DNA of 56,442 nucleotides from the NCBI GenBank assembly GCA_019931185.1, contig JAINDK010000095.1, positions 1-56,442 of the forward strand, in the 5' to 3' direction. The position numbers were made by a program, and so were the translations under genes. How positions within the stretch are numbered: position 1 is the stretch's first letter; the number at the start of each line of letters is the position of its first letter. Positions 24,399 through 43,487 of this stretch are shown one piece after another. The stretch comes from Bryobacter sp. CoA8 C33 (lineage in GTDB: Bacteria; Acidobacteriota; Terriglobia; Bryobacterales; Bryobacteraceae). The notes beneath the pieces are model-generated. The model did not search any database, was not told the DNA's origin, and saw nothing but the letters and a program-made list of their open reading frames with translations.

Positions 24399-26023
24399 AC
24401 CAGCTCGAGCACCGTATCGGCCAGTTCCCGCAGCCGCGGCCGGTGCGTGATCAGAATCAGCGTCGCCTCCGGCAGCGCCCGGCGAATCCCGCTCGTCACC
24501 AGCGTTTCGCTAGCCTCATCGAGCGCCGCCGTCGGCTCGTCCAGCACCAGCACCCGCGGCCGGCGCAACAGCGCCCGCGCGATCGCCAGCCGCTGCCGCT
24601 GCCCCGCGCTCAGCGCCAGGCCCCGCTCGCCCACTTTCTCCCGCAGATCTCCGAACACCCCCTTCAAGCCCACCGCCTCGAGCGCCTGCCACATCTGCTC
24701 CTCCGTCGCCGCCTCATCCCCGTAGCGCAGGTTCTCGGCCACGCTTGCCGGAAACAGCCACGGCGTCTGCTCCACCACGCAAACATGCCGCCGCAGGTCC
24801 GCCAGCCGCCACTCACGCAAGTCCACTCCATCCAGCCGCACGCTTCCCTCCGCCGGATCATAGAAGCGCAACAGCAAATCTCCTAACGTACTCTTGCCGC
24901 GCCCGCTCGGCCCCATCACCAGCCCCGTCCGTCCCGCCTCCACGCGCCAGCTCACTTCCCGCAACACCGGCCGGCCTTCGCTATAACCAAACCGCACCCG
25001 CTCGATCTCCACTTCCCCCCTCACCACCGCGGGGCCGCGCGCCACCGCCGGCTCCCTCACCTCGGGCGCGATCGCAAACAGTGCCTCGACACGCTCGAGC
25101 GACACCTGCGCCGTCACCAGATTCGTGTACAGGCCCATCAATGCCTGCACCGGCGGCAACAACCGCATGTGGTACGCCAGAAAGGCCATTAGCGTACCGA
25201 TCGTCATCGTGCCCGCGATCACCGCCGAGCCTCCCACCCAGAACACCACCGCTGTCGATAACGCGATCACCATGCCCGGCATACCGCTGCCCAGATAGGA
25301 CATCCATTGCATCCGCAACAACGCCCCCAGATAACCCTCATTCTGGCGGTCAAATTCCTCGCCCTCCCGCGCCCCGCGCCCATATGCCATCACCACCCGG
25401 TGTCCCAACAGCGTGTTCAACAGAAAACTGCCAATCTCCGCCGACCGCTCCCGCAACTCCCGTACCCGCTCCACCAGCATCCGCCGGAACCACCAGGCCA
25501 TCGCCACCGCTACCGGCAACGATGCCACCGCCACGGCAAACAACCCAAAGTCCATGCGCACCAGAATCACCACACTCCCCACCAGAAATCCCACATTGCC
25601 CAATATGCTCAAAAGCCCATCGGCCACCACCCGCTGGATCTCGCTGATGTCGTTGTTCAGCCGCGACAGCACATCGCCCGTCTTCCACTCCGCGTGAAAC
25701 CGCGGTGAAAGCGCGTGCAGATGCCGCAACAAGTCGCGCCGCATCGCGAACAGCACCCGGGCTGAGATTTTCGTGTAGCAATAACCCGCCGCCACATTCA
25801 GCGCAAACGCCACCACGCTCACTGCCACCATCAAGCCCGCCACCAGCGCCAGTGCCTGCCGGTTCTTTTGCATCAGCGCATCATCCACTAGCAGCTTCGT
25901 CAGGTACGGCTGCACCAGGCTCAGCGCCGTCGAGGCAATACTGATCGCCGTCACAAAGAGAAGCCCCGCCAGATGCGGGGCAAGATACGGCAAACAAAAA
26001 CGGTATCGTCCGAGCGGCGGCAT
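24395..26023 (-). CDS. qhpF: QhpF-like ABC exporter (gamma-subunit export)
   Basis: This 542-residue ABC half-transporter has an N-terminal membrane domain, starting around FCLPYLAPHLAGLLFVTAI, with a tight-turn region to about residue 310. The ATPase follows: Walker A MGPSGRGKSTLG, Q-loop VVEQTPWLFP, signature LSAGQRQR, Walker B VLVLDEPTAALD and H-loop ILITHRP. In QHNDH systems QhpF exports the processed gamma peptide to the periplasm. It overlaps qhpB upstream by one base (TGATG) and qhpE downstream by four, giving strict translational coupling. Confidence 0.85.
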   Translation of the reverse strand: MPPLGRYRFCLPYLAPHLAGLLFVTAISIASTALSLVQPYLTKLLVDDALMQKNRQALALVAGLMVAVSVVAFALNVAAGYCYTKISARVLFAMRRDLLRHLHALSPRFHAEWKTGDVLSRLNNDISEIQRVVADGLLSILGNVGFLVGSVVILVRMDFGLFAVAVASLPVAVAMAWWFRRMLVERVRELRERSAEIGSFLLNTLLGHRVVMAYGRGAREGEEFDRQNEGYLGALLRMQWMSYLGSGMPGMVIALSTAVVFWVGGSAVIAGTMTIGTLMAFLAYHMRLLPPVQALMGLYTNLVTAQVSLERVEALFAIAPEVREPAVARGPAVVRGEVEIERVRFGYSEGRPVLREVSWRVEAGRTGLVMGPSGRGKSTLGDLLLRFYDPAEGSVRLDGVDLREWRLADLRRHVCVVEQTPWLFPASVAENLRYGDEAATEEQMWQALEAVGLKGVFGDLREKVGERGLALSAGQRQRLAIARALLRRPRVLVLDEPTAALDEASETLVTSGIRRALPEATLILITHRPRLRELADTVLELV

Positions 26024-27120
26024 CAGCCCGGCAACACCAGCATGTTCGAGGTCATATCGGTATTGACGTCGAGATCGCGCACTTGGCGCAATGTCGCCGT
26101 GTCAAACATCTCCACCGTGTTTCCCGCACCGTAGATGTAGATCGTCTTGCCGTCGGAGCTCAAGGAAAACTCAAAACGGCTCCGCCCTTCAAACTCCTGC
26201 ATTTTCGTAATCCGGCGTGAAGCAATATCGAAGATCCAGAATTCGCAACGCCGGTTCGCCCCCATGCCGTTGAAGGCAACCGTGTAGCCGGTCTTGCGGT
26301 CCGGCGTCAGCCTGAGCCCCAGCGTCGCCGATGTGGACGGCCCCACGGGCGTGAACTCGAAGGTCCGCTTCGTCAGATCAAATTCAGCGAATCCAAACGT
26401 CGTCTTATGCACCACTGTGTCGGTCGAATTAAAGAAGCCCAGTACTTTGCCCTTCGGCTCATGCGGGTCATCACCCGGCCCCAGCGTCACCCGTTCGAGC
26501 CCTGGAAACAGCGGCTTCGACAGTTCAATCTTGTCCACTTCCTTGAAGTCTTCCGTCGAGTATATGGCGACGTTTTCACGAAACAGATAGATGTACTTGC
26601 CGTCCGGCGACACGCGCATGCCGCCGCCCCGGCCCCCTCCGCGAATCCGCTGCAACTCCTTCGGCAACTCTACAAACTTCTCGAACTTCCCGCCCGCCAG
26701 ATCCACGACCGCCCACTGTGGCTTGCCCACCTCAAAGCGGTCGATCTTGCGATCCACGGCATACACGTGCGAGTACAGGCGCTTGTTGTCAGGAGATATG
26801 GCCAGCCCCGACGTACGGTAATTCTTGCCGCCCGTATCGAGCGAAAAGCTCCGCTCCAGCTTCCGCGTCGCCACATCCACGATCTCGAAGCTGCAGCCCT
26901 TCGTCGCATGCACGAGAATCTTGCTGCGGTCTTCGTTGAACATCAGGCTCCGCGGGACATCGATCTTCAAATCGATTTCCCCGGTCACCTTTTGCGTGGC
27001 TTCGTCAATGACGACGATCTTCTTTTGCCAGGCGCCGACAAAAAGCGTGCCCAGCCGTGCTGTCTGGGCCGGGGCTGCGGCCGCGGCCCCGAGAGCGGTC
27101 AGAAAATTGCGCCGCTGCAT
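26023..27120 (-). CDS. qhpB: Quinohemoprotein amine dehydrogenase beta subunit (beta propeller)
   Basis: This 365-residue YVTN-type beta-propeller protein shows repeating segments such as LFVGAWQKKIVVIDEATQKV, TSGLAISPDNKRLYSHVYAV, MRVSPDGKYIYLFRENVAIY and FSLSSDGKTIYIYGAGNTVE. The beta subunit of QHNDH is a seven-bladed propeller that covers the CTQ subunit. The N-terminal MQRRNFLTALGAAAAAPAQT is a Tat- or Sec-like signal. The ATG at 27120 overlaps the qhpC stop by one base; the longer frame to 27183 runs inside qhpC and lacks the signal at its N-terminus. Confidence 0.88.
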   Translation of the reverse strand: MQRRNFLTALGAAAAAPAQTARLGTLFVGAWQKKIVVIDEATQKVTGEIDLKIDVPRSLMFNEDRSKILVHATKGCSFEIVDVATRKLERSFSLDTGGKNYRTSGLAISPDNKRLYSHVYAVDRKIDRFEVGKPQWAVVDLAGGKFEKFVELPKELQRIRGGGRGGGMRVSPDGKYIYLFRENVAIYSTEDFKEVDKIELSKPLFPGLERVTLGPGDDPHEPKGKVLGFFNSTDTVVHKTTFGFAEFDLTKRTFEFTPVGPSTSATLGLRLTPDRKTGYTVAFNGMGANRRCEFWIFDIASRRITKMQEFEGRSRFEFSLSSDGKTIYIYGAGNTVEMFDTATLRQVRDLDVNTDMTSNMLVLPG

Positions 27121-27458
27121 TATGGAAACACCAGATCGATATTGCGCCAGTCCTTGGTCGCCGCCGCGCACTTGCTCGTCCATTCCGGGTAGTTATTCAA
27201 GTGATCCGGCACCTGCGCCGGCCAGTAACAACTGATATAGCAGTCATACAGGTCCCGCTCGACCGGCTGGCACAAACCCGCCGTGCCGCCCGATGAGTCC
27301 ACTTCCCATCCCGGCGAAAACACGATCGAACAGCCCATCGGATAATGCGGCCGCTCCGCCCCTCCCGATTGTTGCAGCCCTTCGATGTCGCCTTCTGTCC
27401 CGCTCAGCAGATCATCGATCCGCCGTGCCTTCTGGTTGATGGCCTTGATATGCCTCAT
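27120..27458 (-). CDS. qhpC: Quinohemoprotein amine dehydrogenase gamma subunit precursor (CTQ-bearing)
   Basis: This 112-residue peptide is the crosslinked gamma subunit. With an offset of 36, its residues match the Paracoccus mature subunit one for one: Cys43-Glu52 (C7-E16), Cys63-Asp69 (C27-D33), Cys77-Asp85 (C41-D49) and Cys73/Trp79 (C37/W43), the pair forming cysteine tryptophylquinone. About 28-36 N-terminal residues (MRHIKAINQKARRIDDLL and on) form the leader recognised by QhpD and cut by QhpE; it is not a Sec signal. The gene overlaps qhpD by four bases and qhpB by one. Residue identities are seen; chemistry is known from the family. Confidence 0.93.
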   Translation of the reverse strand: MRHIKAINQKARRIDDLLSGTEGDIEGLQQSGGAERPHYPMGCSIVFSPGWEVDSSGGTAGLCQPVERDLYDCYISCYWPAQVPDHLNNYPEWTSKCAAATKDWRNIDLVFP

Positions 27459-28882
27459 GCCGCTTTCCTCTGATCAAAATGTTTGAGAAAGCCAGGGTTT
27501 TGCGTGGCGATCTCGCCGTAAATTCGCAGGCAAAGATCGGTCCATCCGCGGATCCAGTCACAATAATGCAGGTTGGCGTGCCCGGTGTCGCCATAGCGCA
27601 CAAAGGCTTCGTGGTAACAACCACCCGCGCACAGCGGCCGCGCCCAACAACTATGGCAGTCATACTTGGCATGGATGTGGCCGTGCTTCAAAAATTCCTG
27701 TTGCTTTTCCCGGTCCAGCCCCTCGCTCACGTGCCCCAGCTTGTGCGTGTCGCTGTCGACAAAGCGATGGCAGGGAGAGATATCGCCCGACGGGCCAACC
27801 CCCAGCAGCCCCAGCCCCGCCCCGCAGGGATGCGATTTCGAGATCCCCTGGTGCAACTCGCTCAAGGTGTCGCTCACGTTTGAAAACCCGTGCAGTTCCC
27901 CTCTGAGCGCATAGTCGCGGTACTCATACGCCAGTTGTTCAAACTGCGCCAGTACGTCATCAAGCCCCTTTTCCCCAATCGCATAAAGCCGGTTCGGCGA
28001 TGTCGTCACGGGCGCAAACCCTACCTCGTGAAATCCGATCTCTTCCTTCAGATGGCGGAAGATCCCGATCACGTCCCGCACTCCGCTCGTCAGCGTCACC
28101 CGCGCCGCGATCGGCCGCGTCCGATGCTGCCGCAGCAATTCCTTCACCTTCGGCACGATGATGTCGTAGCTGCCCTTGCCGTTGGCGAACACCCGCAGTT
28201 GATCGTTCAACTCCTTCGGCCCGTCCATCGACACCGTCACCCCGATCGCATTCTCACTCAAATACTCAATGATCTCCGGCCGCAGCAGCGTCGCGTTCGT
28301 CGTCAGCGAATAGTCGATGGCCACCCCGCGTTGCGCCGCCTCCTGCCGCGAATAATCCACAATCCGCTTCAGCAGCGGAAAATTCATCAGCGTCTCGCCC
28401 CCGAAGAACGTGATGTGCACCTGTTTGCGGCTACCCGCTTCGGCAAACAAAAAGTCGACACTTTGTTTCGCCGTTTCAAACTCCATGAACTTCGGCTTGC
28501 CTTCCGGCGTCGCCACTTTATCCTCGCCGAACTCGTAGCAGTACTGGCAGCTCAAGTTGCACTGATTCGTCAGATTGATCACCAGCGTCTGCAGCGGAAA
28601 CGCGGCCGGGGCTTCATCAACCGCCGCCTGGCGTCCCCCCGCCGGCTCGAGCGCCCGCGTCGCCACCAGTTCCTCTATGCAATTGCGGGCTTGTTCCCGC
28701 CCCGCCCCGCCCGCCACCAGTTCCTCCAGCAGATCGACAGCTTCTCGCGGTCGTTGCTTCAGCACCTCAATCGTCCGGCGCGAAAGATCGTCGAGGGCAA
28801 AGATCCCCCCGCTCGGCACGAGATAAACAAAGGGGTTGCCCCCGGCCTCGAACTGATGCAACTCCGACAACTGCAACTGCAT
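27455..28882 (-). CDS. qhpD: Radical SAM/SPASM thioether-forming maturase of QHNDH
   Basis: This 475-residue radical SAM enzyme forms the Cys-to-Asp/Glu thioether bonds within the gamma subunit. The SAM cluster motif CxxxCxxC is Cys108, Cys112 and Cys115 (NQCNLSCQYCYEFGED), followed by the GGETLMNF motif. The C-terminal SPASM region with auxiliary cluster cysteines is visible in GPSGDISPCHRF, CHSCWARPLCAGGCYHEAF and HYCDWIRG. The N-terminal ~90 residues resemble a peptide-recognition domain. It starts two bases after the qhpA stop and overlaps qhpC by four bases, placing maturase and substrate in direct translational coupling. Confidence 0.93.
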   Translation of the reverse strand: MQLQLSELHQFEAGGNPFVYLVPSGGIFALDDLSRRTIEVLKQRPREAVDLLEELVAGGAGREQARNCIEELVATRALEPAGGRQAAVDEAPAAFPLQTLVINLTNQCNLSCQYCYEFGEDKVATPEGKPKFMEFETAKQSVDFLFAEAGSRKQVHITFFGGETLMNFPLLKRIVDYSRQEAAQRGVAIDYSLTTNATLLRPEIIEYLSENAIGVTVSMDGPKELNDQLRVFANGKGSYDIIVPKVKELLRQHRTRPIAARVTLTSGVRDVIGIFRHLKEEIGFHEVGFAPVTTSPNRLYAIGEKGLDDVLAQFEQLAYEYRDYALRGELHGFSNVSDTLSELHQGISKSHPCGAGLGLLGVGPSGDISPCHRFVDSDTHKLGHVSEGLDREKQQEFLKHGHIHAKYDCHSCWARPLCAGGCYHEAFVRYGDTGHANLHYCDWIRGWTDLCLRIYGEIATQNPGFLKHFDQRKAA

Positions 28883-28884
28883 GT

Positions 28885-30537
28885 TTACTGCGCTACCTCA
28901 GGCTGGTCCCACCGCATGTATTGCGGTACGGTCACCAGCAAATAACATTTCGCCGTCAGTGGCTTGCCATCCTTTTGTGGCGCCGCGTCAGCTCCCTTGT
29001 AGGTCGCCACCGCCCAAACCTCGCCATAATTGTTCCGGCTGAACTTCCTTTTGGGATTCGGCCCCTCCACGTTCGGCGTAAAAAATCCATTGCGGTCCAT
29101 CTGCCCCACGTATTGCAGATCGTCATCGCCATAAACAGCAAAGAATTCTTCCATCGACCATTCCGCCTTCAGCGGACCCAGGCGAATGTCATCCGCCGTG
29201 TTCGGCTTCCCGTCAAGCCCCCGATTGAACCCGATCGCCTCAAACTGCATATAGCCTTTCTGGAAGGCCCCACTGCCGCCGCCCAACCTTGCAATAGCCG
29301 TGTCCGTCGCCGTCCTGATGTAGTCCACCGTGTCGTAAATCACCATCGCTCCCGCCGACACGCTTCGTTTCACCGCCACATCCCGCGGGCCAACAGCCGC
29401 TTTGGCCGCAACGCTCACCTGCACCTCGATCAGCCCCGGGCCCTGCTGCGTTACTTTATCCACCGTCACGCCCGCCCCGAAGTCCAAATCCCCCGCCGCC
29501 AGCCGCGCCGGAAACTGATCCCCATGAATGCGCACCGTCGCCGTCTGCCCCGTGCGTAAAACGCCCGGAGTCGCCGACAGAATCACCGGCCGCTCCTCGG
29601 CCCGCACCAGTTTCACGTCATAGCCAAACTCATCATAGGCGCCCCAAAACCAACGGCCTTCGATCTGGTTCTGATCCCTCGACACCAGCATGACTTCGCG
29701 CAACGCCGTGTCCTTGGCCCCGCTGCGGCCCCGCCACGAATAGCCCGTGTAGATTACACTGCGTCCCTCGCGCGTTACCGTCTGCCCGTTCTCTACACTC
29801 GTCATCTTCGAGCGCGTCACCCACTCATTCGGATTGGCGCCCGGCTCAATACTCACCTCGCCCACGAATTGCCCCTTGCCCGCCTGCGCGGCGCTCAACA
29901 GCCAGCGCCCCGCCAGCTTGGCCTGCCGCCGCGACGCAGTCCATTCGGCCCACTCTTTCGTCTCGAGCGGAAAGTCTTTCTTCATCTGCTCGATGGCCCG
30001 CTCCACCGGCGTCCGAGCATCCGCTGTGTTGGCGGCTGCCGCCGGACCTCCTCCCTCGCGCCTCATCCCCGTGAAGCTATTCCATTGCACCACCGGAAAG
30101 TAGCCGATATGCATGTTCACCAGCAGATCCCATTCCTCGGCCGTCCGCCGCCAATTCATCGACTGCCCGTATGGGTGGCAACTCACACAAGCATCCCGTA
30201 CCGCCTCCGGATACTTCTCCTGATCGAGATGCCGCTTTTCGAAGTAGTAAATCCCCGGCTTGGCTTCCTCCGGCGCCAGCCCGTGCTGGTCGCTCAGATA
30301 CTGCACCACGCGGCGCGCCTCCTCCGGCGTCAGTTGCACTCCGTGCAGCCGCACCATCCGCTTCAGGGCTTGCTGCCATCCCTCCGGCGCGCTGCGCACA
30401 AAGGAGATTCGGCTGAGGTTCCCTTTGTCATCCTTGCGATGGCATCCAGAACATTTCGCAACTACGAGAGGATCGGCAACCGGGATCTGGGCGAAGAGTC
30501 CAGATGCGAAAGCAACAATTCCCAAGAGCTTTCGCAT
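28885..30537 (-). CDS. qhpA: Quinohemoprotein amine dehydrogenase alpha subunit (diheme)
   Basis: This 550-residue precursor has a Sec signal (MRKLLGIVAFASGLFAQ) and two c-type heme sites near the N-terminus, CSGCH at Cys29-His33 and CVSCH at Cys117-His121. Long beta-rich domains follow, including an Ig-like stretch (RPVILSATPGVLRTGQTATV). The alpha subunit accepts electrons from the CTQ cofactor and passes them to a soluble carrier during oxidative deamination of primary amines in the periplasm. It is the first gene of the operon A-D-C-B-F-E, with only 33 bases to the divergent dehydratase gene, so the promoter is very compact. Confidence 0.92.
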   Translation of the reverse strand: MRKLLGIVAFASGLFAQIPVADPLVVAKCSGCHRKDDKGNLSRISFVRSAPEGWQQALKRMVRLHGVQLTPEEARRVVQYLSDQHGLAPEEAKPGIYYFEKRHLDQEKYPEAVRDACVSCHPYGQSMNWRRTAEEWDLLVNMHIGYFPVVQWNSFTGMRREGGGPAAAANTADARTPVERAIEQMKKDFPLETKEWAEWTASRRQAKLAGRWLLSAAQAGKGQFVGEVSIEPGANPNEWVTRSKMTSVENGQTVTREGRSVIYTGYSWRGRSGAKDTALREVMLVSRDQNQIEGRWFWGAYDEFGYDVKLVRAEERPVILSATPGVLRTGQTATVRIHGDQFPARLAAGDLDFGAGVTVDKVTQQGPGLIEVQVSVAAKAAVGPRDVAVKRSVSAGAMVIYDTVDYIRTATDTAIARLGGGSGAFQKGYMQFEAIGFNRGLDGKPNTADDIRLGPLKAEWSMEEFFAVYGDDDLQYVGQMDRNGFFTPNVEGPNPKRKFSRNNYGEVWAVATYKGADAAPQKDGKPLTAKCYLLVTVPQYMRWDQPEVAQ

Positions 30538-30570: not shown

Positions 30571-31800
30571 ATGAAACTCTCACGCCGTAACTTCCTTTCG
30601 GGCGCCGCCGCCCTCTCCCTTCCCCTCGTCGAGAAGGCCCAAGCCGAGCTCAAACGAATGAAGATTACCCGCATTCGCTATTACGAATCCTCCATCACCC
30701 GCCCGATGGTCAACCAGAGTTTTCACATCGTCACCGTTGAAACCGATGCCGGCCTGACCGGAATTGGCGAAGGCGGCTCCCCTGACCTCGTCCGCCAGGT
30801 TGCCACTCAACTGATTGGCCAGGACCCCACCCGTATCGAGCACCTCTGGCAACTGATGTTCCGCGGCCTCTTCTATCCCGCCGGCCGCGAGAAAACCCAC
30901 TCCATCGGAGCCCTCGACCTCGCTCTCTGGGATCTCAAGGGCAAAGCCCTCGGCGTCCCCGTCCACCAACTGCTCGGCGGCCTTTCCCGCGATTACATCG
31001 AGTGCTATTGCACCGGCTTTCCCAATCCCCAGAAGCTCAGTCTCAAGGAGAACGCCCGCGCCTGCGTCGAATATGGCTTCCGCGCCTTCCGCACCTCCGT
31101 GTCCGATCCCGGCGGCGACCAGCCCTTCCAGAACCGCGCCATGGTCCTCAAGACCCTCGAGCAATGCCAGCAAATCCGCGAAGGCGTCGGCAAGGCCGGC
31201 GACTGGGCCATTGACTATCACACCCGGCTTGACTTCCCCGATGCCGTCAAGCTCAGCGCCCTGCTCGAACCGCTCGAGCCCTATTTCTGCGAAGACCTCG
31301 TCCGCAGCGAAAACAATGGCGTCTATCGCCAGCTCCGGCCCATGGTCAAGGTCCCCATCGCCGTCGGCGAACAGCACAGCCACCGTTGGGACATCAACGA
31401 ATTGATCGAAAACCGCCTCATCGACTACAACCGTGTCTCCATTCCCAACTGCGGCGGCATCACCGAGTACATGAAACTCGCCGCCCTCTGTGAAACCCAC
31501 TACGTCGGCCAGACCCCTCACTTCACCGGCCCCGTCGGCGAAGCCGCGCTCGTGCACTGCACCGGCGTCTTCCCTGGCCCCGTCATGATGGAGATGACCG
31601 GCACCGCCATCGAGTTGCCCCACCAGTTCTATCTCCCGCAGTGCTTCGACTTCAAAGCCGGCAAGCTCTACCCCAACAACCGCCCTGGCCTCGGTGTCAC
31701 CTTCGATGCCTCCAAGCTCAAGATGTTCTGGGAAGTCACCCGGCACGACCAGCCCATTCAGCTCTTCCGCCGCCCCGACGGCAGTCTGACAAACTGGTAA
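30571..31800 (+). CDS. Tat-exported enolase-superfamily sugar-acid dehydratase
   Basis: This 409-residue protein begins with a twin-arginine leader (MKLSRRNFLSGAAALSLPL). The enolase-superfamily N-terminal cap (KITRIRYYESSITRP) precedes a TIM barrel with metal ligands in WAIDYHTRLDF, FCEDLVRSEN and IAVGEQHSHRWD, and a histidine in VGQTPHFTGPVGEAA. The DYH...ED...GEQ pattern resembles galactonate/mannonate-type dehydratases. The usual K-x-K of the muconate group reads FRTS here. Periplasmic members of this family are frequent in Solibacter-like genomes. It diverges from qhpA and is followed by the S66 peptidase. Confidence 0.85.
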   Translation: MKLSRRNFLSGAAALSLPLVEKAQAELKRMKITRIRYYESSITRPMVNQSFHIVTVETDAGLTGIGEGGSPDLVRQVATQLIGQDPTRIEHLWQLMFRGLFYPAGREKTHSIGALDLALWDLKGKALGVPVHQLLGGLSRDYIECYCTGFPNPQKLSLKENARACVEYGFRAFRTSVSDPGGDQPFQNRAMVLKTLEQCQQIREGVGKAGDWAIDYHTRLDFPDAVKLSALLEPLEPYFCEDLVRSENNGVYRQLRPMVKVPIAVGEQHSHRWDINELIENRLIDYNRVSIPNCGGITEYMKLAALCETHYVGQTPHFTGPVGEAALVHCTGVFPGPVMMEMTGTAIELPHQFYLPQCFDFKAGKLYPNNRPGLGVTFDASKLKMFWEVTRHDQPIQLFRRPDGSLTNW

Positions 31801-33051: not shown

Positions 33052-33146
33052 TGGCGGAAGCCAGTGGGAGTCGAACCCACCAGAGACGCGGAGCGCCTCT
33101 CACTGGTTTTGAAGACCAGGCCCAACACCGGCTGAAATTGGCTTCC
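33052..33146 (-). tRNA. selC: Selenocysteine tRNA (anticodon UCA)
   Basis: Read on the minus strand, the sequence folds as tRNA-Sec. It has an eight-pair acceptor stem (GGAAGCCA with TGGCTTCC), a discriminator G and an encoded CCA. The D arm is 5-6 pairs with GU pairs. The anticodon arm is CTGGT-CTTCAAA-ACCAG, giving anticodon UCA. A long variable arm (about 8 pairs with one mismatch) and a five-pair T arm (GTGGG with CCCAC) around TTCGACT complete it. The length of 95 equals E. coli selC. It implies selenoprotein synthesis; selA and selB are not in this window. Confidence 0.95.
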
Positions 33147-34203: not shown

Positions 34204-35022
34204 CTAACCGGAGATCAGCGAAAGCATGTTGCTCGACATCGGCCGAAAGCCGAGTTGCACCGAAATCTTTAAGGCCGCCTCGCGGATCCGCGCCGCCTCG
34301 GTTTCGAGTACCCCATTCGTTAAAACCTGTGCCGGTGCGCTCATGCTCAAGGCCGCCACGCTCAAACCAGTCGCATCAAAAATCGGCGCCGCCACGCAAC
34401 GCAGGCCGATCACTCCCTCCTCGTTGTCTACCGCATAGCCCCGCTGTCGCACGGCCTTCAATTCTTCCTTCAGTTCGCTTACCGAACAGATCGTGTGCTG
34501 GGTGAACCGTTGCAGCTTCTGCGCGCCGACACGGCTTACCAGCTCCGCCGGTTGCCACGCCAGAATCGCCTTGCCCAGCCCGGTGGCATGCAGCGGCCGC
34601 CGCTCTCCCGCGTCCGCGTACAGGTAAAGCCGGCTCGGACTCCCCACCGTATGCAAATACAGCACCCACTCCCCGTGCAACACCCCCAGATGCACTAACC
34701 CCGGGCTCTTCCGCGCCGTCTCCTGCATCACCAGAAACGAGGCCCGGTACACCGGCGAGTGCCGCAGATAACCCGTACCCATCCAAAGCGCCTTCCCCGC
34801 CAGCCGGTAGCGCCGGCTCGCTCCATCCTGCTCCACGAATCCCGCCTCCCCCAGCGTCGCCACCAGCCGGTGCACCGACGCCAGTGGCTGCTCAAGCCGC
34901 GCCGCCAACTCCGACAGCGGGAATTCAAAAGGCTCCTGCGCCAATACCTCGAGCGCTTGAAAACACTTCAGCGCCGAAGACATGCTCTCCCGCCGCGCCT
35001 CTTCCTTCTTGGGACGAATCAC
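34204..35022 (-). CDS. IclR-family transcriptional regulator
   Basis: This 272-residue protein has an IclR winged helix (SALKCFQALEVLAQEPFEFP, ASVHRLVATLGEAGFVEQ) and a C-terminal effector domain (PLHATGLGKAILAW, GLRCVAAPIFDATGLSVAAL). The GTG at 35022 gives the longest form; an ATG at 34983 preceded by GGGAG is an alternative that removes 13 charged residues. A perfect palindrome lies 18 bases upstream of the GTG and an identical copy sits at the divergent receptor gene, indicating autoregulation and control of that transporter. IclR family members commonly sense aromatic acids, sugar acids or glyoxylate. Confidence 0.92.
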   Translation of the reverse strand: MIRPKKEEARRESMSSALKCFQALEVLAQEPFEFPLSELAARLEQPLASVHRLVATLGEAGFVEQDGASRRYRLAGKALWMGTGYLRHSPVYRASFLVMQETARKSPGLVHLGVLHGEWVLYLHTVGSPSRLYLYADAGERRPLHATGLGKAILAWQPAELVSRVGAQKLQRFTQHTICSVSELKEELKAVRQRGYAVDNEEGVIGLRCVAAPIFDATGLSVAALSMSAPAQVLTNGVLETEAARIREAALKISVQLGFRPMSSNMLSLISG

Positions 35023-35132: not shown

Positions 35133-35145
35133 GGAGAACATCGCC

Positions 35146-38100
35146 ATGCGCTCTGTCGCCATTTCTTTCCTGCTCTTCGCTTCCGGTCTTGCTCTGGCCC
35201 AAGGAACTGCTTCCCTCAGCGGCTCCATTCTCGACCCCGGCGGCGCCGCCGTCCCCGGGGCGAAGCTCACGCTGCGGGATATGCGCAACAATACCTCTCG
35301 CCAGGCCTCGGCCAATAGCCAAGGCCAGTACTCTATCACCCCGCTGCCGGCGGGACTCTATCAATTGGAAGTGGAAGCCAACGGCTTCCAGCGCTTCCTC
35401 CAACGCGATATCCGCCTCCAGGTCGATGAACGTCTCCGCGTCGATGCCACACTCCTAATCGGCGCCGTCACCGAGACCGTACAGGTCACCGGACAAGGCA
35501 CGGCCGTCAATACCCAGGATGCCGTGCTGCGAAATGTCGTCGACGCCAAACGCATGGTCGACCTGCCGCTCAACGGCCGCAACGCACTTCAGCTCGCCGT
35601 GCTCACTCCCGGCGTTCTTCCCATCCGCGGCGACGTCGGCACCTCCTTTCAACCCGCCGACCAGGTCAGCGTCTCGGTCAGCGGCAGCCGTTCCAATGGC
35701 CTCAACTATGTCATGGACGGCGGCGACAACATGGATACCTACCGTTCCGTGGCCAACTCCTTTCCCAATCCCGACCTCCTGCAGGAATTCAGCGTCCAGA
35801 CCAACAGCTATTCCGCCGAGTTCGGCGGACGCGCTGGCGGGGTTCTCAACGTCGTCACCCGGGCCGGTACGAACGACTACCACGGCTCCTTCTTCAACTT
35901 CCTTCGCAACTACCGCCTCAATGCCCGCAACTTCTTTGCCCCCACCCACGATGGTCTGAAGCGGAACCAGTATGGCATGGCCTTCGGCGGCCCCCTACGC
36001 ATCCCCAAGCTCTACAACGGCCGCAACAAAACCTTCTTCTTCGGCGGCTTTCAAAAAACTCCCATCCGCTCCGCGCCCGCCAATCTCATCACCCAGGTCC
36101 TCCGCACTGGCCAACGCGCCGGCGATTACAGCAACGTCCTCGACGGCCGCGGCAATCTCATCCTCATCCGCGACCCCGCCGCCGGAAACACCCCCTTTGC
36201 GGCCAACCGGATTCCCACCAGCCGCCTCGATCCCGTCTTTCAACGCTTCCTCTCCCAGGGCATCCCCACCACCGACGATCCCGCCGGACTCCTCCGCTAC
36301 CAGCGCCCCAACTTCTCCAACAACGATGAATGGAGCCTCCGCGTCGACCAGGTCCTCAACGACCGCAACCGGCTCTACGGCCGCATCTTCCGCGAAGACA
36401 ACACCGTTCCCAATCTCGGCGTCCCCGGAAACATCATCAGCTTTACCAATTCCCTGATCCAGAAAGCCACCAACGCCACCCTCAACTACACCCGCATCTT
36501 CACCCCCTCCCTCGTCGGTGAATTCGGGACTACTTTCAACCGCTCCTGGGGCATCCGCGGTGAGGCCGCCCCCTTCACCTGGGCCGATCTCGGCGCCCGC
36601 CTCACCCCCGCCGCCGGCAGCCGTGACTTTATCCTTAATAGCGTCCCGGGCTACTTCGCCGTCAATCTCTTCGGCGACACGACCCTCGTCCGCAACAACT
36701 TCCAGTACAAAGGCTCCCTCACCTGGATCCGCGGGCGGCACACCATCAAGTTCGGCCTCGATACCATCCGCCGCCAGTTCAATCTTCCCCATGTCAACAC
36801 CAACGGCAACGGCGCCTACGCCTTCGGCCAGACCACCGGCGACGCCGCCGCCGATGCCCTCCTCGGACTCCCCAGCAGCTTCTCCCAGTCCGACGGCTTC
36901 CGCGTCGAAGTTCGCCAGACCGACTGGATCGGCTTCCTGCAGGACGACTATAGAATCAGCCGCCGCGTCACCCTCAACCTCGGCCTCCGTTATGAACCCT
37001 TCCGCCCGTGGGAAGACCAGTGGCTCCCCAACCTGCCTCAGGCCGCCTACTTCGTGCCCGGCCAGAAATCACGCGTCTTTACCGACGCCCCCACCGGCAT
37101 GCTCTTCTTCGGCGACCCCGGCATCGTCCGGCCCCTCGCCCCCCGCCGCAATCTCCGTCTTGCCCCGCGGCTCGGCCTCGCCATCGATCCCTTCGGCGAC
37201 GGCAAAAGCAGTATCCGCCTCGGCTACGGCATCTTCTACGACAACCTCCTGCCCACCGAGCAGGTCCAGCAACCCGCTAACCTGCCCATGTTCGCCACCG
37301 CCATCACCTTCCCCTTTCCCCGCTCCACCGCCGATCCCTACGCCGGCCGCGTCTCCCCGTTTCCCGGCCCCTCCCCCAAGCCGGCTAACTTCCCCATCCC
37401 CCGCCCGCTCGGTTGGCCTGCCATGGACCCGGCGTTCAACAACCCTTACATCCAGCAATGGAACGTCACCCTCGAACGGCAGATCTTCGGCGCCGCCAAC
37501 ATCCTGCGCGCCACCTACCAGGGCTCAAAGGGCACCCGCCTGCCCCTCGTCTACACGGAAAATGCCGCCCGCTATATTCCCGGCGCCTCCACCCGCGCCA
37601 ATTTCAACGACCGCCGCCCCTACTGGCCTGACTTCGGCGGCATCCGGCTCATGAAGTCCATCGCCAACAGCACCTACCACGCTGCCATCTTCACCCTCGA
37701 GCGCCGCTTCACCCGCGATTGGAGCCTGACCGGTTCCTACACTTGGTCGAAGAGCATCGATAACGCCATCAATTCCGCCAGTTCCAACTCGGGTGTCATC
37801 AACAACCCCTCCAATTGGAACAGCGATCGTGGCCGCGCCGACTCCGATCGCCCCCATGCCCTCGTCGTCTCTTATCTCTGGGATATGCCCCGGCTCAAGA
37901 GCTGGCACCCCGTCCTGCGCCACACCCTCGGAGGCTGGCAGAACAATGGCATCGTCAGCGCCTACTCCGGCGTTACTTTTTCCATCGCCGCCGGCATCGA
38001 TCAATCCCTCACCGCCAATGGCGCGGACCGCGCCGACCTCGCCGGCAACTGGCAGTTGCCCTCCGGCAGGCCGAAGGCGGAGCAGATCCTGCGCTGGTTC

Positions 38101-38379
38101 AACCCCGCCGCCTTCGTGCTTCAGCCCGAGGGCAGCTTCGGCAATAGCGGCCGCAATAACATGCGCGGCCCCCGCAGCGCAAATTTCGACTGGGGCCTGT
38201 TCAAGCTCATCCCCATCCGCGAGCGCCATACACTTCAGTTCCGCGCCGAATTCTTCAACCTCTTCAACCGCGCCAACCTCGGCCTGCCTAACAACAATCT
38301 CCAATCGGCCCAGTTCGGACGCATCACCAGCGCCGGCTCGCCGCGGGTGATCCAGTTCGCTCTCAAATACGCCTTCTGA
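35146..38379 (+). CDS. Oar-like TonB-type outer-membrane receptor
   Basis: This 1077-residue outer-membrane protein has a signal peptide (MRSVAISFLLFASGLALAQ) and a carboxypeptidase-regulatory-like domain (GSILDPGGAAVPGAKLTLRD; QYSITPLPAGLYQLEVEANG). A plug region with MVDLPLNGRNALQLAVLTPG and FGGRAGGVLNVVTRAGTNDY precedes a long beta barrel ending in Phe (IQFALKYAF). This is the Oar/SusC-like architecture abundant in Solibacter-type genomes for uptake of large substrates. The ATG at 35146 has AAGGAG 9 bases upstream; the open frame further up to 34759 crosses the IclR gene and is not used. Control by IclR is shown by two operators. Confidence 0.92.
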   Translation: MRSVAISFLLFASGLALAQGTASLSGSILDPGGAAVPGAKLTLRDMRNNTSRQASANSQGQYSITPLPAGLYQLEVEANGFQRFLQRDIRLQVDERLRVDATLLIGAVTETVQVTGQGTAVNTQDAVLRNVVDAKRMVDLPLNGRNALQLAVLTPGVLPIRGDVGTSFQPADQVSVSVSGSRSNGLNYVMDGGDNMDTYRSVANSFPNPDLLQEFSVQTNSYSAEFGGRAGGVLNVVTRAGTNDYHGSFFNFLRNYRLNARNFFAPTHDGLKRNQYGMAFGGPLRIPKLYNGRNKTFFFGGFQKTPIRSAPANLITQVLRTGQRAGDYSNVLDGRGNLILIRDPAAGNTPFAANRIPTSRLDPVFQRFLSQGIPTTDDPAGLLRYQRPNFSNNDEWSLRVDQVLNDRNRLYGRIFREDNTVPNLGVPGNIISFTNSLIQKATNATLNYTRIFTPSLVGEFGTTFNRSWGIRGEAAPFTWADLGARLTPAAGSRDFILNSVPGYFAVNLFGDTTLVRNNFQYKGSLTWIRGRHTIKFGLDTIRRQFNLPHVNTNGNGAYAFGQTTGDAAADALLGLPSSFSQSDGFRVEVRQTDWIGFLQDDYRISRRVTLNLGLRYEPFRPWEDQWLPNLPQAAYFVPGQKSRVFTDAPTGMLFFGDPGIVRPLAPRRNLRLAPRLGLAIDPFGDGKSSIRLGYGIFYDNLLPTEQVQQPANLPMFATAITFPFPRSTADPYAGRVSPFPGPSPKPANFPIPRPLGWPAMDPAFNNPYIQQWNVTLERQIFGAANILRATYQGSKGTRLPLVYTENAARYIPGASTRANFNDRRPYWPDFGGIRLMKSIANSTYHAAIFTLERRFTRDWSLTGSYTWSKSIDNAINSASSNSGVINNPSNWNSDRGRADSDRPHALVVSYLWDMPRLKSWHPVLRHTLGGWQNNGIVSAYSGVTFSIAAGIDQSLTANGADRADLAGNWQLPSGRPKAEQILRWFNPAAFVLQPEGSFGNSGRNNMRGPRSANFDWGLFKLIPIRERHTLQFRAEFFNLFNRANLGLPNNNLQSAQFGRITSAGSPRVIQFALKYAF

Positions 38380-38436
38380 CCCGCGCCCCGCTTCGCTTAC
38401 CATGACGCTAAGAGCCCTTCCCAGGAGTTTCCCCTC

Positions 38437-40161
38437 ATGACCGCTGTTGTCTGCCTTCTTCTCGCCGCCAGTGTCCACGAGGTCCGGCCCGGGCAAAACG
38501 CCCAAGCCATCGTCGATGCCGCCCGGCCTGGCGACCACATCATCTTCCGCCCGGGCCTTCATGTCCAGCCTCTGCGGAAACACCGCTCCATGGTCTACGT
38601 CGACAAGCCGCTCGATATCGAACTCGAAGCCGGCGCCACCTTGAAGCTGGCCGACCGCCAATCCCAACTTGAACGCGAACCCGAAATCACCACCGACCAC
38701 GGCGCCCCCAAATCCATCGACGATTTTGAGGCAGGCGGCAGCTACGACCTCGCCCTCGGCGCCGTCATCTACACCATCCGCATCGACGGCGAGGGTACCT
38801 TCACCTGGGGCAGCGGCGGCACCTTCGACTACCAGCACTCCAAGGTGCCCATCACCGGCGACTGGCAGGACCTCAGCCATGGCGTCAAAATCCGCTTTCC
38901 CAGCAAACGCGGCTACAGCATCGGCAGCTTGTGGTTTCTCTCCTATGACGGCCCTGAAGCCTACGGCATCCGCATCGGCCATGGCACGCAAAAAGACTAT
39001 ATCGAAGGCGTCCGCCTCTTCGGCCGCGGCACGATTGACCTCAACAGCCACAATAATGCCCTACCCAGTGGTCTCGTCAAGAACATCAACGCCTGCGTGC
39101 TCGTTCATGGGCGCGTTCGCAACGTCAGTATTGAAGGCATTACGATGACCAACACCATGCGTTCCGTCATGCTCTACGGCGAACACACCGGCAAGTTCCT
39201 CCAGGGGGGCGCCGTCGGCCCGGGTGAAAGCTTCGATGCCGAAAACATCTCCATTATTCACACCCGCACCATCAACCCCAACGGCAGCGGCTATCTGCTC
39301 GGGCATCCCTCCCACCGCGGCTGGCTGCGCAAGGTCCGCTGCAACTTTAACTACATGGAGACGGCAACCACTTCGATCGAGCCGAACTTCCAACTCGACC
39401 AGTATGAGGTCATCGACAACGTCATCAAAAGCGCGGGAAGGGCCATCCACTGCTGGCGCCGCTCAACCAACGGCCTCATCTCCGGCAACGTCCGTATCGA
39501 TGATCCCACCGGCAAGGAGGTCGTCATGGTCAACGCCCCGGGCGCCTGGCAGTCCCCGGAAAATATCATCCTGCGCGACAATCGCAATCATTTAAGTGAG
39601 CCGCTCGGCTTCTGGGCCAATGTCGGCGGCGGCCAGGACAATCGCGCCACCGGAGCTTTTGCCTCCGTCACCGGCGGCCAGGCCAGCCTCGCTTCCTCCG
39701 CTTATTCCCGGGCTCAAGGCCACCAGGCAAGAACCAAGCGTGTCGCCGAAGACGCCCTCGCCGCCGGCGCCTTCCAATCCCCCGGCGATGCCCAAACCAG
39801 CGTGCTCGTCGCTCGCGGCGTCACCCATAACGATTCCTCCACCGAACTCCGCCCCGGCGCCGGTCTGATCTCAATCGATCCCCACTCCTCGGTCGCCTTC
39901 CGCATCCTCGCCGTCGCCCGTTCCGATTCCGGCGCCGTCGACGCCGTCTTCGATCTCGCCGGCATCGCCTCCCGCTCGAGCGGAGAGGTCAGCGTCAAGC
40001 TCCAACGCACCACGCCCGCGAGCCAGTCCGCCCCCGCCCTCACCCTGTCCGGCTCGAGCGACCGTCTCCGGCTCGAAGCCCGCGGTGTCCCTGGTGAGGT
40101 GCTCCGCTGGGTCGCCCGCGTCGAACTCGTCGAGGTCGTCTCCGGCCCCTCGCCCCGCTAG
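38437..40161 (+). CDS. Exported beta-helix protein with phage tail-spike-like C-terminus
   Basis: This 574-residue protein has a short signal (MTAVVCLLLAASV) and a pectate-lyase-like right-handed beta helix: VRPGQNAQAIVDAARPGDHI, NVSIEGITMTNTMRSVML, NPNGSGYLLGHPSHRGWLRK. From about residue 391 it changes to short YadA-head-like repeats (GGGQDNRATGAFASVTGGQA, SLASSAYSRAQGHQA). From about 449 a module starting SPGDAQTSVLVARGVTH and ending EVLRWVARVELVEV follows, which resembles the C-terminal domain of phage tail proteins. It follows the IclR-controlled receptor by 57 bases and could be a polysaccharide lyase or binding protein in that locus. Confidence 0.8.
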   Translation: MTAVVCLLLAASVHEVRPGQNAQAIVDAARPGDHIIFRPGLHVQPLRKHRSMVYVDKPLDIELEAGATLKLADRQSQLEREPEITTDHGAPKSIDDFEAGGSYDLALGAVIYTIRIDGEGTFTWGSGGTFDYQHSKVPITGDWQDLSHGVKIRFPSKRGYSIGSLWFLSYDGPEAYGIRIGHGTQKDYIEGVRLFGRGTIDLNSHNNALPSGLVKNINACVLVHGRVRNVSIEGITMTNTMRSVMLYGEHTGKFLQGGAVGPGESFDAENISIIHTRTINPNGSGYLLGHPSHRGWLRKVRCNFNYMETATTSIEPNFQLDQYEVIDNVIKSAGRAIHCWRRSTNGLISGNVRIDDPTGKEVVMVNAPGAWQSPENIILRDNRNHLSEPLGFWANVGGGQDNRATGAFASVTGGQASLASSAYSRAQGHQARTKRVAEDALAAGAFQSPGDAQTSVLVARGVTHNDSSTELRPGAGLISIDPHSSVAFRILAVARSDSGAVDAVFDLAGIASRSSGEVSVKLQRTTPASQSAPALTLSGSSDRLRLEARGVPGEVLRWVARVELVEVVSGPSPR

Positions 40162-40190: not shown

Positions 40191-43100
40191 CTACCAGAGA
40201 ATCTTCAATCCCAACTGCATGCGCCGCGGGGCTACCCGCGTGCTCGTGATCGCGCCAAACGTCGGGCTCTGTGTATTTGTGTTTGCGTTGCCGAATTGCG
40301 TGTGGTTGAAGGTGTTGAAGGTTTCCCAGCGCAGTTGCGCCGTGAATCGCTCCGTTGCCCGGAAATTCTTGAACACGCTCGCATCCCAGTTCGCGATTCC
40401 CGGCTGTTGGTATGTGTTCCGTCCCGCATTGCCTACCACGCGAATTCGATTTCCTTGTGCATCCCGCGGAAAGTCGAACGCCGTCGCATTCCAGAACCGG
40501 TCCGGCAGGGAACGTCCGCTGTACGGGTCACCAATTACATTGGGAATGCTGCGCGAGAAGCTTCCCACCAGAATCCAATCCGTGCCAAGTCCCAGCGTTT
40601 GAAATTGCCCTTGCGCCAGTGTGAGAATCCCATTCGTCTGCCAGCCGCCCACCACAAAGTCCAGAGCCTTGCTCATGTTCGAGCCGAACTTCTTGCCCCG
40701 GCCGAAAGGCAGGTCATAAACGAAACTCGTTACAAATCGATGTGGTACGTCAAAGGTGCTTCGCCCTTTGTCCCATTTGCGGAATTCCGTCGAGATGGTT
40801 GAGAATTCGTCCGTCGCCCCCAAGTCCAGACTCTTCTGCCAGGTGTAGGAGGCCAGCAGAAATAGACCACTCGACAGCCGCCTTTCCACCTTCGCCGTAA
40901 GCGCGTTGTAGCTCGACCAACCTCCGTTGTACGTCAGCAGCATGCCCGGCCCAAAACCCGCAAAGGGAATCCGCTGCGCGATCGGAATTGTGCCCGTCGG
41001 GTCGATGGTCCCGGCGTTCAGGTTCCGCCGTTGTGGCAGCTTGCTGCCGGTGCTGCCCGCGTATTCCGCCTCGATCAGCCAGTTGGCTCCGAAGCTCTTT
41101 TGAATTCCAAAGCTCCACTGCCCAAGATACGGCGTCCGGTTCAGCCGGTCGAAACTGAATGGACTGATTGCCGGCGACGTGCTGAAGGACGGCAGCATAT
41201 CCCGCAAGAACAAATTCGGCGTCCGTGCGTCGCCAATCAATGTCTGCGCCTGGAAAAACGGTGGGCCGTTCACCTTGAACTGTTCCTCGTTGAAGTTGTC
41301 GGTTGAATAAAAAATTCCCGCTCCGCCTCGCACCACGAAGTTTTTCAGAAAGCCCGGATTCCAGCTGAACCCAACACGCGGCGCCCAATTGTTGTAATCC
41401 GGATCCACAATTTCCGGCCGTACCCCCTGGCCGGCCAAAACCACCCGTCTCAGTTCCGTGCTGAAAAACAGGCTCCGATTGTTGATCTCGCGCGGTGCCG
41501 CCGCGAACTCATAGCGGATTCCAAAGTTGAGCGTCAGGTTCGGCAATATCCGCCAATCATCCTGGATGTAAGCCCCGTAGAAAGTCGTCCGCATGTCTTG
41601 CGCACCGTCACCCACCGCCCCTCCCGCTTGCCCCGGTACGCCCAGCAGAAAATCCGCAAGACCCGTGCCGGCCGTCGTCTGCAGACCGCTGTAGCGGCCG
41701 TCGAATGTGAACGACGGATTGCCGTTGAAGTTCGTGATCTGGAAGTACTGCTGATGGCTGATCTGCACCCCGCTGCGGATATTGTGCTTGCCTCGGATCA
41801 CACTGAAGTTGTCGGTGAACTGGTAGTTCTGGTCTGTCGCCCCGATCGCTTGTGAAATCGAACCAATCGCCCCAAAGCCCGATACGCCGAAGGACGGCAC
41901 GCCGAATACGATCGGTTGCGTGTTGATGTTCTTCAGGTTGAATACCTCGCGCGCATAGTCCCGGGTAAATGAAGTTTCCGACAACCGGTAGGTCACGCTG
42001 CGGTTATAGCCGAAGCGGGCTTCGTTCAGAATCGTCGGGCTAAAAGTGTGGTTCCAGGTGGCCGTGACCAGCCGGTTCGATAATGGAAAACCTTCTCCCC
42101 CTAACGGCCGCAGTACTTTGACGTCACGCGTTTCATCGGAATGCGAATACGTTCCAAAAATCTGGTCGCGCGCCGTCAACTGGTGGTCGATGCGCGCGTT
42201 GTATTGATCCCAGTCGTTGATCTGACCCGGCGTGGCCACCGTATTGAATGTCGGGAAAAGCGCCTGCCCTCCCGGTATCGCGACATTCGGCGTGGGTATG
42301 AATTGAAACGCCAAACGCGAGGTCGGATCAATGCGGCTCGCCGGGATGATGTTGTTCGGAAACGGCGCCCCACCGAAAGGATCCAGTACGTCCGCGCAAC
42401 GCCGCGCCGCGGGATTCGCCTGGCATAGTGCCGAGCCCCGTGGCAGGATGCCCGTACCCGCGCTATCGTCCGCCAAATTCCCCTCCAATTGCGCGCGGGA
42501 AGGATAGAGCGCCGTCGCCGCGGAACTGATTCGTTGACGCTGTCCTTCGTAATTGAAGAACCAGAATGTGCGATTCCGCCCGTTATACAGCTTGGGGATC
42601 ATCACCGGTCCACCGATCGCCGTGCCAAAGTTGTGAAAGTTCAGCGGCGGCTTCACTCGCCCCGTCCGGTTCAAGAAGAAATCCGTCGCGTTCATCACCC
42701 GGTTCTGCCAGAAATTGAATACGCTTCCATGCAGTTCGTTCGTCCCGTTGCGCAATGTCGTGTTGATGATCGAAGCGCTGCGGCCGAACTCCGCGCCAAA
42801 CGTCGATCTTTGAATCTTGAATTCTTGAATCGCCTCGATCGAAGGCCGGATCCCGACGCTCCCAAACCGCGCATTGCGCGTTTCGATCCCATTCAACAAA
42901 AAGCTGTTGTTTGATTCCCGCCCCCCCGCGATCGAAAGCGTCATGTCACTGCGGCCGGTCCAGGATGTCGCCGGCGAGGTGCCGATGCCGATCGGCACTG
43001 CCCCCGCCGTAATGGCCGCCAGTTGCATGAAGTTCCGTCCACTCAACGGCAGGTTCACAATCGCCGTTTGGTCCAGCACCTGCCCGATCGCCGCGCTCTC

Positions 43101-43487
43101 CCGGTTCAGCAATGTTTCACTCGCCGCCGATACCGTGATCGATTCCGTAACCTGCCCCAATTTCATTTCCACGTCCACGCGAGCCCGCTGGCCCACTTGG
43201 ATCCGCATGTCCTTCACGGTTTGCGTTTGAAATCCAGCCTGCGCAATCTCTGCCTGATATTGCCCCGGCTTCAGGTTCTGAAACAGCACGAGCCCCAGCC
43301 CATCCGTCGCCGCTTCCTGCCGGATGCTCGTCGCTACCTCAATCAGAGCGACTTTCGCTCCCACTATGTTGGCGCCATTGGGGTCCGTGACTCTGACCAC
43401 CAAATCTCCTGAAATCGATTGCCCCCACGCTGAGGACGCATCCCCCATCACCAGTGCGACGAGAAGACCCAATATTGCTCTTTGCAT
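40191..43487 (-). CDS. Second Oar-like TonB-type outer-membrane receptor
   Basis: This 1098-residue protein has a signal peptide (MQRAILGLLVALVMGDASSAWG), a carboxypeptidase-regulatory-like domain (VRVTDPNGANIVGAKVALIE; GQYQAEIAQAGFQ) and a plug with IVNLPLSGRNFMQLAAITAG and FGRSASIINTTLRNGTNELH. The long barrel ends MQLGLKILW, so it has a C-terminal aromatic residue. It shares architecture with the receptor at 35146 but only loose sequence similarity, and lacks the palindromic operators. It converges on the beta-helix gene with 29 bases between. GC is slightly lower and wording differs from neighbours, hinting at separate origin. Confidence 0.9.
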   Translation of the reverse strand: MQRAILGLLVALVMGDASSAWGQSISGDLVVRVTDPNGANIVGAKVALIEVATSIRQEAATDGLGLVLFQNLKPGQYQAEIAQAGFQTQTVKDMRIQVGQRARVDVEMKLGQVTESITVSAASETLLNRESAAIGQVLDQTAIVNLPLSGRNFMQLAAITAGAVPIGIGTSPATSWTGRSDMTLSIAGGRESNNSFLLNGIETRNARFGSVGIRPSIEAIQEFKIQRSTFGAEFGRSASIINTTLRNGTNELHGSVFNFWQNRVMNATDFFLNRTGRVKPPLNFHNFGTAIGGPVMIPKLYNGRNRTFWFFNYEGQRQRISSAATALYPSRAQLEGNLADDSAGTGILPRGSALCQANPAARRCADVLDPFGGAPFPNNIIPASRIDPTSRLAFQFIPTPNVAIPGGQALFPTFNTVATPGQINDWDQYNARIDHQLTARDQIFGTYSHSDETRDVKVLRPLGGEGFPLSNRLVTATWNHTFSPTILNEARFGYNRSVTYRLSETSFTRDYAREVFNLKNINTQPIVFGVPSFGVSGFGAIGSISQAIGATDQNYQFTDNFSVIRGKHNIRSGVQISHQQYFQITNFNGNPSFTFDGRYSGLQTTAGTGLADFLLGVPGQAGGAVGDGAQDMRTTFYGAYIQDDWRILPNLTLNFGIRYEFAAAPREINNRSLFFSTELRRVVLAGQGVRPEIVDPDYNNWAPRVGFSWNPGFLKNFVVRGGAGIFYSTDNFNEEQFKVNGPPFFQAQTLIGDARTPNLFLRDMLPSFSTSPAISPFSFDRLNRTPYLGQWSFGIQKSFGANWLIEAEYAGSTGSKLPQRRNLNAGTIDPTGTIPIAQRIPFAGFGPGMLLTYNGGWSSYNALTAKVERRLSSGLFLLASYTWQKSLDLGATDEFSTISTEFRKWDKGRSTFDVPHRFVTSFVYDLPFGRGKKFGSNMSKALDFVVGGWQTNGILTLAQGQFQTLGLGTDWILVGSFSRSIPNVIGDPYSGRSLPDRFWNATAFDFPRDAQGNRIRVVGNAGRNTYQQPGIANWDASVFKNFRATERFTAQLRWETFNTFNHTQFGNANTNTQSPTFGAITSTRVAPRRMQLGLKILW

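Follow-up and report, generated by a model that had tools for sequence, protein, structure and literature searches.

The gene at positions 38437-40161 of the window, the whole 56,442-nucleotide stretch of Bryobacter sp. CoA8 C33 DNA analysed here, encodes a 574-residue protein that we regard, with moderate confidence, as a tailspike-like, carbohydrate-active protein that is exported, probably forms a trimer and takes part in nutrient capture. It comprises a right-handed β-helix core, glycine repeats and a jelly-roll cap. The repeats and the cap are homologous to parts of viral proteins, the core is homologous to one phage protein, and in relatives the gene belongs to a conserved locus. What the original prediction, which had singled out this gene from the DNA alone, observed in the sequence is confirmed, and its interpretation is supported in part. 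The features of the gene and of its two upstream neighbours are listed below.

34204-35022, reverse strand: divergent IclR-family regulator (Pfam IclR_C and HTH_IclR)
35140-38379, forward strand: cognate Oar-type TonB-dependent receptor, 57 bases upstream of the 574-residue gene (Pfam CarboxypepD_reg and OMP_b-brl_4)
38423-38427, forward strand: AGGAG, likely ribosome-binding site (read in the sequence)
38437-40161, forward strand: tailspike-like β-helix protein, 574 residues, ATG start (open reading frame, 24 related loci, models)
38437-38475, forward strand: signal-peptide-like N-terminus, residues 1-13 (hydrophobic stretch by eye, in relatives too)
38473-39594, forward strand: right-handed parallel β-helix core, residues 13-386 (AlphaFold2 model, fold matches, alignment of relatives)
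38719-38952, forward strand: inserted stretch inside the β-helix, residues ~95-172 (phage matches of its counterpart in the phage protein of contig L079)
39598-39783, forward strand: YadA/UspA1-type glycine repeats, residues 388-449 (UspA1 head match, viral repeats)
39784-40146, forward strand: GDAQTS...RWVARVE jelly-roll cap, residues 450-570 (cap model, fold and viral-cap matches)

No ATG, GTG or TTG start lies between the in-frame upstream stop and 38437, and the gene is present as a single copy in the 5.05-Mb draft genome (138 contigs, 97.7%-complete). The whole protein returns no Pfam, PHROG or NCBIfam match up to the limit of E 10, and a 22-row profile of it matches nothing among the PDB sequences; no carbohydrate-active family is matched at the sequence level in Pfam, NCBIfam or the PDB sequences. 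No paper on this family was found in the literature covered, which mostly excludes subscription papers. A signal peptide is plausible, judging by eye from the N-terminus and from those of the relatives, which are hydrophobic too; its n-region is devoid of positive charge. The core begins at residue ~13, behind the hydrophobic N-terminus, and a virion-attachment domain is absent there. The protein would be exported, to the periplasm or beyond the cell, and would exhibit the layout of a tailspike minus the virion-attachment domain.

The β-helix that had been read from the sequence is borne out by the AlphaFold2 model and the fold matches. The full-length monomer model (pLDDT 73.9, pTM 0.66) is a β-helix with residues 387-455 disordered. 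The best fold match of the core is an alginate epimerase/lyase (8ja4; VIA Z 26.2, rmsd 3.5, 254 aligned residues), ahead of AlgE4 and AlgE6 (Z 25.1), the K1 capsule lyase (24.4), GH28 (24.1), the β-helix adhesin PfbA (24.0) and the HK620 tailspike (about 23), and Foldseek analysis of the full-length model reports the GH110 enzyme 7JWF as its second match. Many of these core matches are near ties; they indicate a shared fold and no particular activity, the β-helix being widespread among proteins. At the sequence level, the core shares at least 60% identity with 19 of the 21 aligned relatives, and 107 of 385 window positions are invariant over eight rows, the phage row among them. Conserved polar residues (27 residues between positions 170 and 350) recur with a period of about 23.5, that is, one helix turn, which suggests one conserved face; this periodicity is modest evidence, since random subsets of polar positions were as periodic in 61 of 5000 draws. 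Among the conserved residues are H224, R226, R228, E249, E269, H290, R294, E315, H338 and R341. As for the inserted stretch, its counterpart in the phage protein of contig L079 matches a virion protein of the Maribacter phage Panino (E 4e-8), the tail fibre of the Roseobacter phage CRP-6 (E 4e-3) and structural proteins of Cellulophaga phages (E 1e-2). Since the core profile matched that part alone in two further bacterial genomes (G569 and G738), the inserted stretch may be a mobile unit.

The glycine repeats, likened in the original prediction to YadA heads, are placed at residues ~388-449. With a profile made of the window protein and seven relatives, the top PDB match is the UspA1 head (E 3.3e-4). 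Compared with the repeats of the viral proteins L035 and L036, residues 388-448 align at 31.9 and 14.4 bits, which none of 1000 shuffles reached in either case; with L037 and L038 the similarity is weak, at 5.6 and 7.1 bits, values matched or exceeded by 3 and 1 of 1000 shuffles. The phage-tail-like GDAQTS...RWVARVE module can likewise be upheld at residues 450-570. The window cap aligns with the four viral caps at 25-44 bits, scores that none of 1000 shuffles reached for any of them, and an hhalign comparison between 11 Bryobacterales caps and the viral four reports a probability of 99.6 (E 2.7e-24). Planctomycete caps match the Bryobacterales caps (probability 98.7, E 3.8e-16) and give a probability of 11.3 (E 0.0027) with the viral ones, the planctomycete profile consisting of two rows. 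The cap model built from cellular and viral rows (pLDDT 87.0, pTM 0.79) is a jelly-roll. The original prediction would have been refuted by the lack of any structural match of the C-terminus to tail-spike or trimerisation domains. That outcome did not arise, since the cap matches T4 gp9 (Z 10.3), tail fibres and tailspikes: the Kp9 tail fibre follows at 9.4, a chain from the baseplate region of a Klebsiella phage at 8.7, and the AM24 and ApiP_P1 tailspikes at 8.3, rows with Z below 8 falling in a range common among unrelated models. At E <= 0.001, Foldseek analysis of the cap reports one match in the PDB, the Kp9 fibre, and 93 among viral models from tailed phages and giant viruses of eukaryotes, some of them named YadA-like head proteins of Caudovirales. 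Given the giant-virus proteins, calling the cap phage-like may be too restrictive. No CBM family is named in the cap's fold-match list, which excludes nothing. UspA1 and T4 gp9 are trimers. Because these solved relatives of the repeats and of the cap are trimeric, the 574-residue protein may be a trimer as well, the short β-roll and the jelly-roll cap probably holding its three chains together.

The contig scan reports 24 related loci, from records titled Acidobacteriota, Planctomycetota or Verrucomicrobiota and one titled only "bacterium"; 21 of the 24 can be aligned to the window protein, with identities of 52-85%. A profile search of 200 genomes of the window's order gives 15 matches, 14 over most of the core and one partial. 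Thirteen of the 14 core genomes, the window's own counted, carry the repeats and cap; G450 has a core without either and looks misbinned. The class of the planctomycete relative gives 10 matching genomes out of 248, two of them weak and partial, and the phylum of the verrucomicrobial relative gives two out of 213, namely the starting genome and a weak match. In a set of 396 genomes of the window's phylum, with three genomes of its family among those listed, single-sequence searches return the gene itself and weak matches (L002, L003 and L005; E 7e-5 to 9.5e-4). The profile of repeats and cap matches eight genomes of this set, the other seven outside the main cap region and mostly in repeats. 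A plasmid search gives nothing below E 0.7. The cap is found in 10 of 140 Bryobacterales genomes searched, once in each and always on the core gene. Other Acidobacteriota proteins (L040-L044) contain many YadA-type repeats with no GDAQTS cap seen, and in some of them the C-terminal part, by eye, resembles what we take to be an intramolecular chaperone.

The part common to the relatives covers residues ~13-386, beyond which four kinds of C-terminus occur: none, repeats and cap (Bryobacterales), cap without repeats (Planctomycetaceae; L020 and L022), and a β-propeller (Verrucomicrobiota). The propeller follows the core in L023, L024 and L027-L030, and that of L023 matches Pfam Mala_s_1-like and PQQ_2. 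Rows dropped from the comparison are L031 (core split over two frames), L072 (partial core), weak partial matches (L061, L073, L074 and L076-L078), copies of other rows (L047-L053, L057 and L062-L067), and L025, L056 and L070, which equal L026 in length and tail and come from bins of different phyla with doubtful binning. L025, L026, L056 and L070 seem to represent one core protein in bins of both Acidobacteriota and Planctomycetota, which points to misbinned contigs. On the 32-core tree, a single branch (97/95) separates the 15 rows bearing repeats and cap from all others. The propeller rows are set apart in this way too, and so are the cap-only ones (each 100/100), but not those without a cap. 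Fifteen of the 32 cores lack the cap (nine end bare and six bear the propeller), and therefore the cap cannot be essential to the core. It may be older in the family, since two Planctomycetaceae relatives possess a related cap without repeats. Grouping the capped Bryobacterales and Planctomycetaceae rows as one clade was rejected (p-AU 0.0185), in a tree that contains the long phage branch. The group with repeats and cap is no longer firm in the 28-row tree that includes the phage core (one change in 7% of bootstrap trees).

The kinship with phage proteins that had been proposed is found in both halves of the protein: cap and repeats in viral contig proteins L035-L038, where the GDAQTS cap follows C-terminal glycine repeats, and the core in the viral contig L079. 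A first viral scan, with a single C-terminal sequence as query, found nothing; a second one reported two contigs that have the repeats only, L032 and L033. Weak matches to the cap come from two records of uncultured phages, 462 and 642 kb long (E 4e-3 and 7e-3). Phage matches are obtained for four of the ten genes scanned near the viral module genes of L035, L036 and L037: a tape measure and a tail protein in L035, a tape measure in L037 and a weak terminase match in L036. PHROG analysis of the six viral cap or repeat proteins names none, except for one weak match (E 0.0044). Contig L079 (42.5 kb) has a portal gene (E 8.3e-69), and its protein L079:7935-9902 shares 47% identity with the window protein over residues 5-390. 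The gene directly follows one with YadA-like repeats, as seen by eye, and an endolysin gene lies downstream with one gene between. Two further viral scans for the core, pattern-based and able to miss relatives, report L079 again and no other contig. The gene next to the phage core (L079 9796-11862) encodes a 688-residue protein whose C-terminal part is of the NedA-like galactose-binding kind (E 1.8e-6); it may be another tail protein that acts on carbohydrates.

These relationships admit a narrower and more tentative reading: a depolymerase-like β-helix of Bryobacterales, to which a phage stalk and cap would have been added, would form a free secreted homotrimeric enzyme linked to a TonB receptor in a sugar-acid locus. 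If this is true, trimerisation serves other ends than virion building, and the capless, capped, propeller-fused and phage-borne forms record the exchange step by step. The opposite traffic, from bacteria to phages, would make the L079 core a gene for a secreted bacterial enzyme that a phage acquired; we consider it rather unlikely. It agrees with the presence of the core in about thirty bacterial loci from three phyla against a single viral contig, and PMC10653864 gives both directions as hypotheses for tailspikes. Against it, the phage row stands outside the 27 cellular rows of the 28-row tree and not within them, on a very long branch (2.25) that makes its place unsure, and the repeats and cap occur on unlike viral proteins, whereas the cap, in 10 of 140 Bryobacterales genomes, is confined to this gene. 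In the reading that we favour, the repeats and cap would have come from phage. Both halves of the protein having relatives in phage tails, the family bears on the exchange of parts between bacteria and viruses.

In the window, the locus comprises the IclR regulator, the TonB receptor and the core gene, with no gene between the latter two. The receptor is 93% and the regulator 84% identical to those of a related locus, L010; the convergent TonB receptor at 40191-43487 shares about 30% identity with the cognate one. The enolase-superfamily gene at 30571-31800 is of another type (23.6% identity to that of L010). Pfam names the two TonB receptors of the window, the dehydratase and an NHL protein. 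In L010, L011, L015, L097 and L098, the order is divergent IclR, TonB receptor, short-chain dehydrogenase (SDR), enolase-superfamily dehydratase and core; L095 and L096 have the same gene set with the core ahead of the SDR, and L096 contains genes whose beginnings look, by eye, like those of sulfatases. The check proposed with the original prediction, a search for the same fusion near TonB-type receptors, finds it in 10 of 13 module-bearing loci (the window, L009-L012, L014-L016 and L094-L098, counted from gene tables, L010 and L011 being near-identical). L008 and L013, whose contigs end close upstream, are left out of this count. The dehydratase occurs in nine of the 13 loci, the SDR in eight (L012 unresolved) and IclR in eight; receptor, regulator and catabolic enzymes are all present in seven, and the window is without SDR and dehydratase. 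L009 retains beside the core only a frame of 96 residues that resembles the dehydratase, and in L094 the receptor is 4.6 kb away, with no SDR or dehydratase within 19.5 kb. The best copies elsewhere in the window genome share 48% (SDR) and 39-43% (dehydratase) identity; with no close copy, the orthologues seem to have been lost, which makes the later steps of the pathway uncertain in this genome. Among the relatives outside Bryobacterales with scanned neighbours, L018 and L019 have a sulfatase gene next to them and L017 has one ~4 kb away. For the dehydratases of the locus, the models matched are those of galactonate, gluconate and mannonate dehydratase, none reaching its cut-off, and the sugar acid therefore cannot be named.

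Taken with the locus and the fold, the conserved polar face favours action on a polysaccharide: the β-helix and its inserted stretch probably bind and cleave or modify one, for which acidic or sulfated sugars are the best guess. The link of the gene to an IclR regulator and a dedicated TonB receptor suggests that breakdown products would enter through that receptor, and in many related genomes the SDR and the enolase-superfamily sugar-acid dehydratase of the locus would carry the breakdown further. A non-catalytic surface or periplasmic binder, an adhesin or glycan-capture protein passing polysaccharide to the TonB receptor, is rather unlikely in our view. In its favour, the adhesin PfbA is one of the strongest matches to the fold of the core, repeats of the YadA type are components of adhesins, and regulator, receptor and core gene are all that the window keeps of the locus. 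These points are set against the strong conservation of polar residues along the helix, with its modest statistics, and neither a membrane anchor nor an autotransporter barrel is seen in the protein, whose model ends in a jelly-roll. The idea of a prophage in decay or of a misassembled contig, which phage-like modules in a draft of 138 contigs might suggest, is largely refuted and very improbable, because 13 of 200 genomes of the order (the window's included) carry core and module, many with conserved gene order, and no phage structural gene is found in the ten window genes scanned.

That no phage genes surround the gene was part of the original prediction and is true of these ten genes, which match no phage structural or packaging family; their PHROG matches are an ABC transporter, a radical SAM protein, a PHP/DNA-polymerase stretch and a family of unknown function. 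Elsewhere in the window, positions 24395-30537 of the reverse strand bear quinohemoprotein amine dehydrogenase genes (alpha subunit, radical SAM, propeller protein and ABC transporter). Among them, a Cys-rich frame of 112 residues (27120-27458) looks by eye like what is presumably the small crosslinked subunit. A selenocysteine tRNA is reported at 33056-33146 of the reverse strand, between two likely genes, by ARAGORN and Rfam (RF01852, 73.4 bits).

The exported, tailspike-like protein that we favour would add a candidate carbohydrate-active family from little-studied phyla, and the family includes natural members that have the parts presumed to trimerise, others that lack them, and one from a phage, with which tailspike origin and the role of the trimer can be tested. 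PMC10653864 presents the evolution of tailspike depolymerases as a long-lasting dispute and sets out phage-to-bacterium and bacterium-to-phage origins. It describes the β-helix depolymerases KP34gp57 and LKA1gp49, in which a domain is inserted close to the beginning of the helix, tentatively ascribes trimerisation to the C-terminal domain, names GH110 7JWF, and suggests that the trimer lets the enzyme double as a virion part. The window protein resembles KP34gp57 and LKA1gp49 in the inserted domain near the β-helix start and in a C-terminal domain of the kind suggested there to trimerise; no sequence similarity to either was found. Unlike them, it is encoded in a chromosome, begins with a signal-like stretch where they have a virion-binding domain, and possesses a glycine-repeat stalk ahead of the cap. 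At the fold level, AlgE4, AlgE6 (mannuronan C5-epimerases) and 8ja4 are the top matches of the core, with 16-17% identity. The tailspikes of AM24 (5w5p), Fri1 (6c72) and vB_ApiP_P1 (6e1r) and the Kp9 tail fibre (7xy1) match the full-length and cap models; they are virion parts, with 6-17% identity to the window protein in those rows. The viral proteins L035-L038 share the YadA-type repeats followed by the C-terminal GDAQTS cap (32-34% cap identity), but no β-helix core is seen in them (frames read by eye) and their repeats are more numerous, while the phage protein L079:7935-9902 shares the core and has a different C-terminus without family match. The trimeric autotransporter heads of UspA1 and YadA contain similar glycine-rich repeats of about 15 residues; the window protein has few of them and ends in a jelly-roll instead of a barrel anchor. 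Lastly, the β-helix body with a C-terminal jelly-roll is the fold-level architecture of phage tailspikes and receptor-binding proteins, whereas the gene described here does not stand among phage tail genes and, in relatives, belongs to a metabolic locus.
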